Below are positions 19,999-23,831 of a stretch of 23,831 bases of DNA, one piece after another. The stretch's first letter is position 1. The number at the start of each line of letters is the position of its first letter. A model generated the notes under the pieces. The model worked only from the letters and a program-made list of their open reading frames with translations, did no database searches and had not been told where the DNA came from. The stretch is from a virus: positions 1-23,831 of IMG/VR virus record IMGVR_UViG_3300024261_000154. One strand, written 5' to 3'. Both the position numbers and the translations under genes were made by a program.

Positions 19999-20381
19999 TT
20001 AATGACTCCTTCTGCGAGTTTTGCGAATTGGGTTTCGATTGAAATATTGATGACAAGAACTGTGTTGCCGTTCTTATCGGTTTTAGTAGTAATTGCTATG
20101 GTGTCACCCGCGTTTGCTTTGTGCTTGATGTCACGTATAGATAGCCTCTTGTCTGAACGATTCTTTGTTCGGTAGAAGTTAATCGTGGTCGGCACTCCGT
20201 CTAAATATTCTGCTTTGATTGTTTTTTTGTCTCCGTTGCTCATTTTTTCGTAATCTACGCCTAGTAGTTTGCTGAGATTACGAACGCTGTTGTTTGCATC
20301 GATAGTGGACTTATCTAACATTGTTTTTGACAAAGTGATGATTGCGGGGTTGTGGCTGTTTAAATCTGATATTTTAGTCAT
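19995..20381 (-). CDS. hypothetical protein, possible small DNA-binding fold
   Basis: A 128-aa protein, MTKISDLNSHNPAIITLSKT, then TINFYRTKNRSDKRLSIRDI and KANAGDTIAITTKTDKNGNT. The segment Y-R-T-K ... K-R-L-S-I-R-D-I-K-x-K-A-N-A-G-D-T-I loosely resembles the effector/B3-like DNA-recognition fold of EcoRII-type proteins; this is a weak suggestion. ATG 20381 has AGAGGAG 8 nt upstream. An in-frame ATG at 20417 also has a GAGGGG SD and belongs to the repeated CGAATCATGA junction family, so a 140-aa form is equally possible. Confidence 0.7.
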   Translation of the reverse strand: MTKISDLNSHNPAIITLSKTMLDKSTIDANNSVRNLSKLLGVDYEKMSNGDKKTIKAEYLDGVPTTINFYRTKNRSDKRLSIRDIKHKANAGDTIAITTKTDKNGNTVLVINISIETQFAKLAEGVIK

Positions 20382-20413
20382 GATTTGATCTCCTCTAGTG
20401 TTTTTTGTGTTAT

Positions 20414-20512
20414 TCATGATTCGCGCCCCTCTTCTTTGGCCGATGTTTTGGCCGATGTTTTGGCCGATGTTTTGGGTTATGAAATATGATCATGTGGATG
20501 ACCATATTTCAT
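20414..20512 (-). pseudogene. tiny broken reading frame with three KTSA repeats
   Basis: ATG 20512, preceded by AGAGGGG, reads MKYGHPHDHIS and then TAA (20477-20479). Read on in the same frame it continues P, three copies of KTSA, then KEEGRES and TGA at 20414-20416. The C-terminal -RES and the stop within CGAATCATGA match the ends of the real genes at this junction family. The simplest reading is a short gene interrupted by one stop. It may instead be non-coding spacer carrying repeats. Confidence 0.35.
20438..20473. repeat. three perfect 12-bp tandem repeats
   Basis: GGCCGATGTTTT occurs three times head to tail (20438, 20450, 20462), followed directly by a 40-bp inverted repeat. The pair resembles an iteron-plus-hairpin layout. 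On the - strand the unit can be read as Lys-Thr-Ser-Ala codons, so a coding origin is an alternative. Confidence 0.9.
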
Positions 20513-20515
20513 AAC
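20476..20515. repeat. 40-bp inverted repeat with 13-bp perfect arms
   Basis: GTTATGAAATATG (20476-20488) pairs perfectly with 20503-20515. After one mismatch the inner TCAT/ATGA also pair around a GTGG loop, giving an almost unbroken 17-bp stem. It overlaps the last base of the preceding small frame's stop. No T tract follows on either strand, so it is not a classic terminator. It could be an operator, origin element or mRNA-stabilising hairpin. Confidence 0.85.
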
Positions 20516-20631
20516 TAGTCCCCTCTCTTTTCTGCGGCTAGCGCGTTAGTCAATAACATCTGTAGAATTTGTTTGATCGTAAGATCAACCCCAAGCTCGT
20601 CCAATTTTATCGCTTGTAGCTGCCTTAGCAT
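20515..20631 (-). CDS. 38-aa helical peptide, start uncertain
   Basis: The frame encodes MLRQLQAIKLDELGVDLTIK then QILQMLLTNALAAEKRGD, an amphipathic helix-turn-helix-like pattern. The expected coupled start (ATGA at 20650, junction family CGAATCATGA) instead opens a different frame that stops after 21 codons at 20585. A one-base shift near 20640, or a start at TTG 20637 or ATG 20631, would be needed. Real gene with damaged start, or re-initiation product; uncertain. Confidence 0.5.
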   Translation of the reverse strand: MLRQLQAIKLDELGVDLTIKQILQMLLTNALAAEKRGD

Positions 20632-20646
20632 CTTCAAATCGATATT

Positions 20647-20838
20647 TCATGATTCGACCTCTCCCATGTGTAAGCCATGGTCAATACGTTTTCTTGCTCC
20701 CGGCGTCTTGCTGTCTACCCATTGGCAAAGGTTGTAAGCAACGCCGCCGTTGTACATAAGATCAATAAGGTAATTGTGTATATCTTCTTGGGTTGGTTGG
20801 TTGTCGAACTCTAGTTCGATGGTTACTTCGTAGCTCAC
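20647..20838 (-). CDS. small hypothetical protein, GTG start
   Basis: A 63-aa protein: MSYEVTIELEFDNQPTQEDI, then HNYLIDLMYNGGVAYNLCQW and a basic end finishing GEVES. The N-terminus looks like a beta strand. GTG start overlaps the previous stop within CGAATCGTGA and has GAGGAGG upstream. One of a run of four genes whose products all end in -ES because the last codons double as the next gene's ribosome-binding leader. Confidence 0.7.
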   Translation of the reverse strand: MSYEVTIELEFDNQPTQEDIHNYLIDLMYNGGVAYNLCQWVDSKTPGARKRIDHGLHMGEVES

Positions 20839-21038
20839 GATTCGACCTCCTCTTTGCTAGGTCTTTCAGCGAGTGCGCTGATCTGTTTATTGGTGCGTTC
20901 GTGCAGCCTATAGAGCAGCTCCCAGCTTTCGGGCGTCATGCTTCCGGTTGCAGCCAGGGCTGCGGTAAACGAGTTGTAATCTCGTAACAGCCGAACGGTG
21001 GTCTTGATCGATCTCCGTTTTCGTAGTCCGTGGGTCAC
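20835..21038 (-). CDS. small helical hypothetical protein, GTG start
   Basis: A 67-aa protein, basic at the start (MTHGLRKRRSIKTTVRLLRD) and helical after (YNSFTAALAATGSMTPESWE, LLYRLHERTNKQISALAERP), ending KEEVES. GTG start lies in the repeated junction CGAATCGTGA with GAGGAGCG upstream. No recognised family. A dimeric coiled coil is possible. Confidence 0.7.
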   Translation of the reverse strand: MTHGLRKRRSIKTTVRLLRDYNSFTAALAATGSMTPESWELLYRLHERTNKQISALAERPSKEEVES

Positions 21039-21235
21039 GATTCGCGCTCCTCTCGGCTCATTTCAACTGGGACGTAACAACCAATACAACCCTTTGTTTC
21101 GAAGGTAAGCCGGTCAGCTATAAATGAGGCTCTATGTAGAGGTAGGTTTCGATCCACCGTTAGGTAACCTAACAGCCTTATTTTTGAGCCAGACAGCCCT
21201 CGTTTAGGTGCCCATGCCACTGCGTAGTTATTCAC
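21035..21235 (-). CDS. small basic hypothetical protein, GTG start
   Basis: A 66-aa protein: MNNYAVAWAPKRGLSGSKIR, then LLGYLTVDRNLPLHRASFIA and RLTFETKGCIGCYVPVEMSR ending EERES. CIGC is a single CxxC. GTG start is inside the junction CGAATCGTGA with GGAGGCCG upstream. It appears beta-rich. Function unknown. Confidence 0.68.
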   Translation of the reverse strand: MNNYAVAWAPKRGLSGSKIRLLGYLTVDRNLPLHRASFIADRLTFETKGCIGCYVPVEMSREERES

Positions 21236-21465
21236 GATTCGGCCTCCACGAACCCTTTCATGAAATCAGCGATAACAGCTTCAGGGCGGTTATCAGGTTC
21301 GATTATTAGGTCGGTTAAATCCAGATCAAAGACACTGAAGTCTGCTTCTTCGAGTCCGTCTTTGTTCCTTATGCTGAAGGTTAACCATTTGGTCGTTTCC
21401 CCCGTATGTTCTTCTACGACTACCTTTGAAGCGTGGTGAATGTTTGTTGTTGTTGTCATTCTCAT
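21232..21465 (-). CDS. small acidic hypothetical protein
   Basis: A 77-aa protein: a short start, then VVVEEHTGETTKWLTFSIRN, EADFSVFDLDLTDLIIEPDN and a helix ending GFVEAES. Acidic, probably a beta sandwich fragment plus helix. ATG 21465 overlaps the previous stop (ATGA) with AAAGGAA upstream; ATG 21459 is an alternative start. It is the first gene of the CGAATC-junction run. Confidence 0.68.
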   Translation of the reverse strand: MRMTTTTNIHHASKVVVEEHTGETTKWLTFSIRNKDGLEEADFSVFDLDLTDLIIEPDNRPEAVIADFMKGFVEAES

Positions 21466-21992
21466 GTTTTGATTTCCTTTATGTTTAAAGTATTTTGTTT
21501 GTAGTGTTCATCGGTATTCTCGTTGAGAACGCTGAACTGTTGGTGGGCTTGTTCTTCTGCTAAGTCCAAAGACTCAGCTTCTATTTCTATAGTTTTAGTA
21601 ATTATTGCTCGGATGATTATTTCGTAGGTTTTATTGTTCGGCGGGTTGAGTACTTTATGTGATCGAAGCAGATCTTCTGCAGCTGCAATAGTGTGATCAG
21701 TTAAAGGCTCGCCTTGGTTCGGCAGGAATCCTGCACCGCTACTGTAGTCCTGTATAAATTCTAGAACATTAGCTACGTTTGCAATGTCGTCGTGGTTTAG
21801 GATTAATGATGTCTCAAGCTCATTAATAAAGCGTTGTAATCCCTCACAATACTGTTCTGCTTCTTGTAGGGTGTCAAAATAAGGTGTTCCTGAAGTGATG
21901 AAATTTAGGGATTCCTCCTCGCGTTGGTATATTGTGTGTAAGTCTAGAACCCTAAGGTAATTGTTGAGGTATTCCAGGGCTTGTTTAATCAT
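21462..21992 (-). CDS. hypothetical helical protein with DpnD/PcfM-like end
   Basis: A 176-aa protein, mostly helical (LEYLNNYLRVLDLHTIYQRE, TLQEAEQYCEGLQRFINELE). Residues about 120-160 (YEIIIRAIITKTIEIEAESL, DLAEEQAHQQ) have the strand-x-EAES-x-EAxEQA pattern of small DpnD/PcfM-like domains of mobile elements. That assignment is tentative. Start and stop overlap neighbours as ATGA. Confidence 0.68.
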   Translation of the reverse strand: MIKQALEYLNNYLRVLDLHTIYQREEESLNFITSGTPYFDTLQEAEQYCEGLQRFINELETSLILNHDDIANVANVLEFIQDYSSGAGFLPNQGEPLTDHTIAAAEDLLRSHKVLNPPNNKTYEIIIRAIITKTIEIEAESLDLAEEQAHQQFSVLNENTDEHYKQNTLNIKEIKT

Positions 21993-22249
21993 TTTATGTC
22001 ACCAATATGGGAGCTGAAGAGACTTTTCTGATGCCCATAAGCAACTTTTGATGTGTCGGTGCAAAAGTCCTGTTCATGGACTTCAATCTCTCCTCCACTT
22101 TCTAAGAAAGCTTTGGTCTGCTCTGCAATTAATTCAGACTCTTCTCTTTTGCTTTTGAGGTTCTTCACTGCGGAGCGTACACCATCAGACCGTCTTGATG
22201 GTTTTACTTTCCAGTGTTTATAGTGAGCCTTGCTATATTTCTTTGTCAT
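21989..22249 (-). CDS. small basic hypothetical protein
   Basis: An 86-aa protein with a basic N-terminal half (MTKKYSKAHYKHWKVKPSRR, SAVKNLKSKREESELIAEQT) and the segment KAFLESGGEIEV, a FLxxGGxI pattern that recurs in small phage DNA- or polymerase-binding proteins. Its start MTKK lies within the 3' end of the Ala-rich paralogue (17-nt overlap), where the DNA is a diverged copy of the paralogue junction. Confidence 0.7.
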   Translation of the reverse strand: MTKKYSKAHYKHWKVKPSRRSDGVRSAVKNLKSKREESELIAEQTKAFLESGGEIEVHEQDFCTDTSKVAYGHQKSLFSSHIGDIK

Positions 22250-22559
22250 TAATTAACTCCTCATACCGTTTAACCCAGTAATCCACCTTATCGGCATCAT
22301 AAGCATCATCATCAGCATCAGCAGCCGAGACCGCAGCAGTAGCCGCCTTATGCAGATGCCACCTCTCCCGAGCAGAAGCATCAGCACGAGCAGCAGCAAC
22401 GTAAGCAGCTTTAGCAGCAGCCTCAGCCTCAGTAGCAACGTAAGCAGCCTCAGCAGTATAAGCCGCCCAAGCTGCATCAGCATTTGCCTTTAGTGCTTCT
22501 ACACTAACTTCTTCTCCTGCTTGCCATCTCTTAACGACTTCTATGTATTTATTTGTCAT
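22233..22559 (-). CDS. Ala-rich tandem paralogue 3 (longest, 108 aa)
   Basis: Conserved head MTNKYIEVVKRWQAGEEVSV and conserved tail VDYWVKRYEELINDKEI surround an Ala-rich centre (AAYTAEAAYVATEAEAAAKA, AAYVAAARADASARERWHLH, AVSAADADDDAYDADK). The centre looks like a long single helix. Compared with its siblings the terminal Lys-TAA has become Lys-Glu-Ile-TAG, extending the overlap with the next gene to 17 nt. It is the most diverged copy. Function unknown; no signal peptide. Confidence 0.8.
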   Translation of the reverse strand: MTNKYIEVVKRWQAGEEVSVEALKANADAAWAAYTAEAAYVATEAEAAAKAAYVAAARADASARERWHLHKAATAAVSAADADDDAYDADKVDYWVKRYEELINDKEI

Positions 22560-22796
22560 TAGTTAACTCCTCATATTTTTTGACCCAGTAAGCAGCATCA
22601 ACATCAAGAGCAGCAGCAGCATAAGCAGCAGCAGAATAAGCAGCATAAGCAGTAGTATAAGCAGCAGTCTTAGCATTTGCCCTTAGTTCTTCGTGACTAA
22701 CAGACTCCTTGTCTACCAACCATTTCTTTACTACTTCGATGTGTTTATTTGTCATTAGTTAACTCCTCGTATTTTTTAACCCAGTAAGCAGCATCA
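22548..22796. repeat. 53-bp repeat at paralogue junctions, third copy near 22236
   Basis: The junction DNA at 22548-22600 and 22744-22796 is identical at 51 of 53 positions. It covers the tail of one gene, its stop, and the start of the next. A diverged third copy occupies about 22236-22280. This is the footprint of tandem duplication by unequal recombination. Confidence 0.9.
22549..22755 (-). CDS. Ala-rich tandem paralogue 2 (shortest, 68 aa)
   Basis: Head MTNKHIEVVKKWLVDKESVS, tail AAYWVKKYEELTNDK, and a centre of Ala and Tyr (YTTAYAAYSAAAYAAAALDV). The gene starts inside the end of paralogue 1 and ends inside the start of paralogue 3. In each overlap ATGACAAATAAA is read as MTNK in one frame and as (N)DK-stop in another. 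GAGTTAACTA before ATG includes a weak SD, so coupling is likely. Confidence 0.8.
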   Translation of the reverse strand: MTNKHIEVVKKWLVDKESVSHEELRANAKTAAYTTAYAAYSAAAYAAAALDVDAAYWVKKYEELTNDK

Positions 22797-23014
22797 GCGT
22801 TCCCTTCAGATGCAGCATCAGCAGCGTACAACACAACATTAGCGGCTTCGGCTACGGCTTCGGCGACACCAAAAGCGTCAAAAGCAGCATCTGAGAGGAA
22901 GGTGGCGGCGGAAAAGGCGTGAAAGGCGTAATCACGGCTGGACGAAAGCTGTTCCTGACTAACGCTATCGTTGTCTGCTAACCATTTCTTTACTACCTCA
23001 ATGTGTTCGTTCAT
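22745..23014 (-). CDS. Ala-rich tandem paralogue 1 (89 aa)
   Basis: Head MNEHIEVVKKWLADNDSVSQ, tail DAAYWVKKYEELTNDK, centre rich in Ala, Phe and Val (FHAFSAATFLSDAAFDAFGV, AEAVAEAANVVLYAADAASE). It is the first of three tandem copies. Its centre differs most in composition, with more Phe and fewer Tyr. ATG 23014 overlaps the upstream stop (ATGA). Function unknown; genes with this layout occur in phages as unassigned Ala-rich proteins. Confidence 0.8.
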   Translation of the reverse strand: MNEHIEVVKKWLADNDSVSQEQLSSSRDYAFHAFSAATFLSDAAFDAFGVAEAVAEAANVVLYAADAASEGNADAAYWVKKYEELTNDK

Positions 23015-23220
23015 AAATCAACTTCCAGGTATGCAGCTTCGTAGTCCGCGACCTGTGCTACGCGCTCCGTGTTAGCGCGGTCTGCCGCTTTTGCTAGCAG
23101 CATTAAGCTTTCTCGTACGAAGCTTTGGGAGTCATAACGTGCGTGCTCGTTTTGCAGCACTGCGATCATAGGGTCGATGAGTGATACCCAGCTAGGGGCG
23201 GCTTTGTATTCTGCGTCCAT
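23011..23220 (-). CDS. small helical hypothetical protein
   Basis: A 69-aa protein: MDAEYKAAPSWVSLIDPMIA, then VLQNEHARYDSQSFVRESLM and LLAKAADRANTERVAQVADY. Mostly helical, acidic. GGAGG lies 4 nt before ATG 23220. Its stop overlaps the first Ala-rich paralogue. No recognised family. Confidence 0.72.
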   Translation of the reverse strand: MDAEYKAAPSWVSLIDPMIAVLQNEHARYDSQSFVRESLMLLAKAADRANTERVAQVADYEAAYLEVDL

Positions 23221-23613: not shown

Positions 23614-23630
23614 GTAAAAATGATTTTTAC
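23614..23630. repeat. small inverted repeat in the leader of the rightmost gene
   Basis: GTAAAAA-TGA-TTTTTAC, perfect 7-bp arms, 14 nt upstream of the last gene's ATG. On the - strand it reads as a hairpin just before the SD. Its right arm is the start of the 45-bp direct repeat. Confidence 0.7.
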
Positions 23631-23725
23631 CTCAAAATGATGATAGTGAAGCAGGCACACTAACCCCCTGCTTCACTGTGTTTTTACCTCAAAATGATGA
23701 TAGTGAAGCAGGCACACTAACCCCC
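23624..23725. repeat. 45-bp identical direct repeat, two copies
   Basis: Copies at 23624-23668 and 23681-23725 are identical and 57 bp apart. Each begins TTTTTACCTC and ends CACACTAACCCCC. The 12 bases between them complete a hairpin with the first copy only. The second copy runs into CCCTTTGGG and the hexamer array. Confidence 0.95.
23643..23685 (+). terminator. hairpin with T tract, probable intrinsic terminator
   Basis: AGTGAAGCAGG (23645-23655) pairs perfectly with CCTGCTTCACT (23667-23677) around an 11-base loop; two more pairs, one a G-T wobble, extend it. GTGTTTTTA follows on the + strand. On the - strand the downstream sequence is only moderately T-rich. It would stop transcription running rightward toward the window end. 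Confidence 0.5.
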
Positions 23726-23732
23726 CTTTGGG

Positions 23733-23831
23733 TTTGACTTTGACTTTGACTTTGACTTTGACTTTGACTTTGACTTTGACTTTGACTTTGACTTTGACTT
23801 TGACTTTGACTTTGACTTTGACTTTGACTTT
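23733..23831 (+). repeat. TTTGAC hexamer array, at least 16.5 copies, cut by window end
   Basis: From 23733 to the last base the sequence is an unbroken TTTGAC repeat: 16 complete units plus TTT, with no mismatch. It is preceded by CCCTTTGGG. No coding frame with a start uses it. True length is unknown because the window ends inside it. Confidence 0.98.

Follow-up and report, generated by a model that had tools for sequence, protein, structure and literature searches.

Tandem growth of small genes and repeated start sequences are both already known in phages. In the cluster K mycobacteriophages, a repeat containing AGGAG (start-associated sequences, SAS/ESAS) is located directly before the starts of many genes belonging to different families, among the non-structural genes and mostly in one orientation (Pope et al. 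2011, PMC3203893). In phage T4, the tifA gene undergoes segmental amplification under toxIN selection, which yields identical copies (PMC9391042).

The locus analysed here consists of three adjacent Ala-rich genes in a viral DNA of 23,831 nucleotides (IMG/VR record IMGVR_UViG_3300024261_000154, positions 1 to 23,831, called the window below). SAS/ESAS is the nearest published likeness to its repeated junctions, several copies containing a Shine-Dalgarno (SD) sequence being found at the starts of genes of different families (8 copies in contig L176 and 6 clustered ones in the window). However, the 13-bp consensus GGGATAGGAGCCC is absent and is replaced by the junction strings GAGGAGTTAACTAATG, AAGGAGCAAGGCGAATGA and GAGGNCGAATCRTGA, the string lies within the upstream gene where it is read as the tail of the protein, the strings vary among viruses, and the Ala-rich array is without counterpart in cluster K. 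As in the case of tifA, a small non-structural phage gene appears to have been multiplied in tandem by recombination (PMC9391042), whereas the copies are here diverged and their centres unrelated. Diversity-generating retroelements (DGRs) resemble this family in that a fixed scaffold holds variable codons whose third base is constant. The likeness to the VIPR vrRNAs, whose repeats also combine two variable bases with fixed ones in alternation, is only formal, as the present tract is protein-coding, shows a helix periodicity and has a period of 3 instead of YNNGG (PMC13142463). No published account of the family, of its dual-coded junctions or of its NNT-restricted centre was found in the open-access literature, and the three are, as far as the searches reach, undescribed.

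A trio of Ala-rich genes and its family

The window is a fragment of a tailed phage. Its plus strand codes for an internal virion protein and a tail fibre, and its minus strand for a DNA helicase, an exonuclease, a primase/replication protein and a family A DNA polymerase, the best match of which (∼36% identity) belongs to the KPP25-like Pseudomonas phages. No near DNA match to the window was found among phage records. The trio sits past the replication genes, among small genes without assigned function (Table 1). Elsewhere, a pure hexanucleotide tract, (GACTTT)16, at 23736-23831 (+) reaches the end of the contig and is adjoined by two exact 45-bp direct repeats (23624-23668 and 23681-23725); this tract may be either biological or an assembly end.

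A previous reading of the sequence alone had reported three adjacent related genes of 89, 68 and 108 aa. These ORFs are present and a search of the 23.8-kb record with copy 2 retrieved both others, at E values of 1.6e-11 and 9.2e-6, indicating from their sequences that the three are true paralogues. Copies 1 and 2, as well as copies 2 and 3, overlap by exactly 11 nt. The proposal that each gene starts inside the end of its neighbour by means of a 12-base string applies to copies 2 and 3 and fails for copy 1, the start of which shares only ATGA with the preceding unrelated gene. On the other side of the trio, the product of the gene started by the last array junction matched the SutA RNA-polymerase-binding domain PF20661 in the Pfam search (E = 1.4e-7, 31.2 bits for a cut-off of 29.3) and is a candidate modulator of host transcription. 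A role of this SutA-RBD gene as functional partner of the arrays was rejected, as it was seen in the window only among 102 array neighbours.

Iterated searches and a head/tail profile revealed 108 members on 54 IMG/VR contigs, the window included, a few of these contigs being near-duplicates of one virus and two of the member lists belonging to a single contig. The members measure ∼49 to 134 aa and the relatives carry 1 to 8 copies. Arrays of 2 to 8 copies were found 22 times, one 21-kb contig harboring an 8-copy array plus a separate 3-copy array; single-copy records are many and often lie at contig edges. Single-copy genes of constant length in all relatives, which the sequence-only reading had named as contrary to its view, were thus not observed in IMG/VR. 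All the neighbouring pairs (47/47) overlap by exactly 11 (19 pairs), 4 (19) or 8 (9) nt.

Searches of 50,697 phage records, 84,980 GTDB species genomes and 72,556 plasmids revealed no member of the family; the genome and IMG/VR scans depend on short peptide patterns, so that distant relatives may have been missed. With three full or head queries, tblastn against cultured phages gave a best E value of only 2, and genome scans with two alignments returned 49 chance pattern matches and zero relatives. The Ala-rich proteins gave no match in the PDB, a best value of 0.0019, under the cut-off, in Pfam, and only weak matches, none of them trusted, among the PHROGs. For phrog_38757, 6/81 members match positions ∼85-150 of 170 (E = 6.7e-6 or weaker), most family members and the entire window being without match, and this result may reflect the Ala-rich composition since control archaea match too. 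Defence models applied to the array neighbours gave generic helicase/ATPase matches only.

Table 1. Coordinates of the trio, its flanking genes and the two types of junction in the window.
Feature	Position	Strand	Description	Basis
Copy 1	22745..23014	-	89 aa, MNEHIEVVKKW...AAYWVKKYEELTNDK; head/tail profile 65.7/46.7 bits	ORF
Copy 2	22549..22755	-	68 aa	ORF
Copy 2 head	22672-22755	-		Alignment boundaries
Copy 2 centre	22591..22671	-	Variable, Ala-rich, between head and tail	Alignment boundaries
Copy 3	22233..22559	-	108 aa, C-terminal end INDKEI	ORF
Upstream neighbour	23011..23220	-	69 aa, no family; 4-nt ATGA overlap with copy 1	
Putatively coupled downstream gene	21989..22249	-	86 aa	Pfam SutA-RBD at residues 32-57
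Junction 1	22748..22768	-	Copy 1 end and copy 2 start; GAGGAG (SD) TTAACTA ATGACAAA	Exact 21-mer match
Junction 2	22552..22572	-	Copy 2 end and copy 3 start	Exact 21-mer match
Junction 3	22242..22262	-	Copy 3 end, starts non-family gene 21989-22249; GAGGAGTTAATTAATGACAAA	
Second junction type	20647..20661	-	GAGGTCGAATCATGA	GAGGNCGAATCRTGA search
Second junction type	20835..20849	-	GAGGTCGAATCGTGA, starts gene 20647-20838	GAGGNCGAATCRTGA search
Second junction type	21035..21049	-	GAGCGCGAATCGTGA, starts gene 20835-21038	GAGGNCGAATCRTGA search
Second junction type	21232..21246	-	GAGGCCGAATCGTGA, starts gene 21035-21235	GAGGNCGAATCRTGA search

Junctions between the copies

The string ATGACAAATAA(A) is read as MTNK in one frame and as NDK-stop in the other. 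The 51/53 identity previously reported for the junction DNA was reproduced in the best 53-nt segment across junctions 1 and 2, and the junction 21-mer GAGGAGTTAAYTAATGACAAA occurs 3 times in the window for 0.00 expected from shuffles. The EEL codons of YEELTNDK are GAGGAGTTA, and the next ATG is found 7 nt after GAGGAG. In the family, GAGGA(G/A) is located ∼7 nt ahead of the start in the 11-nt overlap class and in most of the 4-nt class. Other viruses have AAGGAGCAAGGCGAATGA at the junction, where it is read as KEQGE-stop; this string is present 8 times within one 2.7-kb stretch of L176 (0.03 expected), where it precedes three family members plus unrelated genes. In L127, an upstream unrelated DUF551-like gene has the C-terminal end LEELTNAK and, in L112, GAGGAGTTAACTGATG is retained while a change of frame makes it PRGVN-stop in the last copy. 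A second junction type, GAGGNCGAATCRTGA, was matched 7 times in the window with at most 2 mismatches (0.25 expected), and 6 of these 7 matches cluster at 20378-21246 (-), before unrelated small genes.

As the codons of EELTNDK also provide the next gene with its Shine-Dalgarno sequence and start region, this peptide need not be a binding surface, and the occurrence of similar repeated junctions ahead of unrelated genes also indicates that the tail is not purely one. The conservation of EELTNDK therefore no longer speaks for the suggestion that the fixed ends are binding surfaces. It may still hold for the head (27 codons) and for YWVK(K/R)Y: both lie upstream of the SD and are kept beyond what an SD and a start codon require, and YWVK(K/R)Y is retained in arrays with different junctions. 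On the basis of their sequences, these two segments are candidates for a constraint at the protein level.

A second family, with a fixed N-terminus (IIDNAPEGATHVD) and a variable remainder, was observed at L174:1500-4700 (-), and its start junction is the same as that of the Ala-rich members.

The variable centres

Within contigs, nucleotide identity reaches 0.96 in the heads and 1.0 in the tails, whereas the centres are unalignable, with an identity of 0.53 compared to 0.52 after codon shuffling. The centres are 14 to 92 residues long and contain 51% Ala, 10.5% Asp, 8.3% Tyr and 0.3% Pro, Pro and Gly being nearly absent. The spacing of their non-Ala residues is enriched at 3, 4 and 7 in comparison with shuffles (z = +7.6, +5.0 and +3.8, respectively) and that of the aromatic residues also at 10, 11 and 14, a periodicity which points to selection for one-sided helices.

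The AlphaFold models are moderate and agree with the helical centre proposed earlier. In copy 2, four helices are predicted (4-14, 21-32, 38-50 and 54-66; pLDDT 77.5, pTM 0.64) and, in copy 3, a short, a long and a last one (4-13, 20-82 and 86-105; pLDDT 86, pTM 0.45); for each of the two copies the agreement concerns 2/5 models, so that the fold is provisional. Fold searches with these models matched no known fold.

Words of 6 codons are repeated 202 times in the centres against 65 expected, a threefold excess, and the 12-mer repeats inside the centres are in codon register in a ratio of 2413 to 0, with periods that are multiples of 3 (12, 21, 30 and more). These in-register repeats and the excess of 6-codon words indicate that block duplication operates in the centres.

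The same repeats are compatible with a neutral by-product, an explanation which is doubtful but has to be considered seriously. According to it, a (GCT)n-rich frame slips and the copies recombine at repeated start sites without any diversifying function, the fixed ends being a ribosome-binding site. The tail codons, which serve as such a site and are found at unrelated genes too, the GCT runs of up to 9 and the block repeats in register are in agreement with this view. However, it does not account for the helical periodicity, for the near absence of Pro and Gly, for a head conservation which extends over 27 codons, well past the overlap, or for the maintenance of YWVK(K/R)Y upstream of the SD across differing junctions. 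Furthermore, adjacent Ala codons do not exceed the expected homogeneity (670 compared to 655), and a simple slippage of pure Ala runs was rejected because these codons are not unusually alike.

Copy turnover

The proposal that the cassette increases in number and varies its centre was supported by the copy numbers, lengths and unalignable centres given above and by the comparison of syntenic sites. One such site carries 3 copies in C27883 and 2 in C20358, the flanking proteins being 81-94% identical; variable copy number at a syntenic site is a trait of a recombining array of coupled paralogues. In C25860, C1352/C9467 and C20187, a shared site holds copies of 49, 69 and 96 aa between genes with 80-100% protein identity and, in C27996 and C9426, the copies measure 73 and 134 aa, respectively, next to a downstream gene which is 97.8% identical. 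Point differences between close relatives are very few. In addition, the nearest head was found in the own contig group for 34/68 members, compared to 4% expected, as predicted by duplication or gene conversion. Erf-like annealing proteins are coded at most 900 nt from four arrays.

L001 and L003, which originate from two metagenomes, are identical save one base over more than 1 kb downstream; their divergence begins within the tail of the preceding copy and is complete from there. The whole data set consists of metagenome assemblies, in which a chimaeric join at a repeat could in some cases imitate a single breakpoint of this kind. That the arrays as such are an assembly artefact, in which the repeated ends of different genes have been joined, is very unlikely: the junctions are indeed repeats and L001/L003 split at one of them, but the 47/47 junctions are exact and frame-consistent in many independent assemblies, and the same arrays were recovered in separate assemblies (C27883/C9544 and C22925/C22929).

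Two chimaeras were observed. At L121:2598-2822 a family head is fused to the interior of another gene, and at L149:1248-1463 (+) an unrelated N-terminus is followed by an Ala-rich centre and a YWVERYEA tail. The C25860 copy (L195 near 8860, -) is apparently without in-frame ATG, which suggests that some copies may be dispensable; this copy may be dying or use another start.

Codon usage of the centres

Codons ending in T represent 0.81 of the codons in the centres, compared to 0.30 in the heads, 0.21 in the tails and 0.30 in 88 neighbouring genes, and 90% of the NNY codons of the centres end in T compared to 0.59 in the heads. The share of GCT among Ala codons is 0.88 in the centres and 0.38 in the long ORFs of the same contigs, and the corresponding values are 0.93 and 0.61 for GAT, 0.90 and 0.52 for TAT, 0.87 and 0.34 for GTT, and 0.87 and 0.49 for AAT. 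In the window trio, GCT reaches 0.72 against 0.27. Across the family, the frequency of third-base T increases at codon 26 and drops again where the YW of the tail is reached, and in one member (C9426_32) 0.99 of 173 codons end in T. All sixteen NNT codons are present in the centres which, being nearly all NNT, have a fixed third base and two variable first bases.

Shared ancestry of one centre tract was rejected as the cause of this rule, as the longest common substrings between centres of different contigs are no longer than in shuffled sequences (13.8 and 13.7, respectively). The mRNA structure per nt is -0.276 for the actual sequences, -0.428 for random synonymous ones and -0.206 with A at every third base; part of the NNT bias can be put down to weak mRNA structure, but not the preference of T over A.

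The centres could be a natural NNT codon library, in which both the first two bases and the codon number vary free of stops and frameshifts, and recombining coupled copies would serve to make and try out many versions of a helical protein that binds host targets as these change; this we regard as unlikely. A targeted mutagenesis of the DGR type, which would vary the first two bases and leave the third one fixed, is scarcely credible. The contrast in NNT and NNY codons between centres and heads and the use of the sixteen NNT codons would suit it, but a reverse transcriptase (PF00078) was detected in 0/36 records, window included, these records being fragments and the control giving matches in 3 genomes; the length of the centre varies as well, and its commonest codon, GCT, is devoid of adenine, the base that DGRs mutate. 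It is equally hard to credit that NNT is kept because the +1 frame of each gene encodes a second, hydrophobic (Leu/Met) protein. NNT does turn each +1 codon into a stop-free, hydrophobic NTN (0.68 LIVMF) and the +1 runs stop inside the tail, but just 27% of the members have a run that covers 70% or more of the protein, and copy 1 of the window has none.

Proposed explanation

The explanation that we favour, and hold to be probable, is a translationally coupled cassette array which recombines at its junctions and whose helical centres are rebuilt by in-register block changes. The trio would be one array of a family of small helical proteins, whose genes in a tailed phage lie among the non-structural ones. 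A unit would be a self-contained translational cassette in which an Ala-rich centre separates a fixed head of 27 codons from the tail, and ribosomes would pass from copy to copy because the last codons of the tail carry the Shine-Dalgarno sequence and the start codon of the next unit. The near-identical ends and junctions would provide the homology by which units are gained, lost or swapped by recombination. The centres should be altered by duplication, deletion and replacement of codon blocks in register, an amphipathic Ala-rich helix being maintained. The conserved helices of the head and of YWVK(K/R)Y would serve to close a small bundle, inside which the centre can differ in length. The variation may serve the binding to changing targets of the host or of rivals. 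That the arrays act on the host or its defences is a guess, which fits their place among small non-structural genes and their fast turnover. The interpretation of the sequence-only reading is partly supported.

Most of the viral dark matter consists of small phage genes to which no role has been assigned, and here an entire family bears the signs of fast remodelling, with fixed ends, replaced centres and shifting copy number. It also appears from the junctions that the conservation of a protein tail can be due to its use as a ribosome-binding site. The NNT rule, in which the third base is fixed and the first two are variable, reverses the usual pattern and calls for an explanation. In some uncultured viruses of microbes, small overlapping genes thus stand in rows of one to eight, with constant ends and rebuilt Ala-rich middles, which suggests a little-known means by which a virus can remake a protein again and again. 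Should these proteins bind targets of the host or of its defences, the contest could be read from the arrays.
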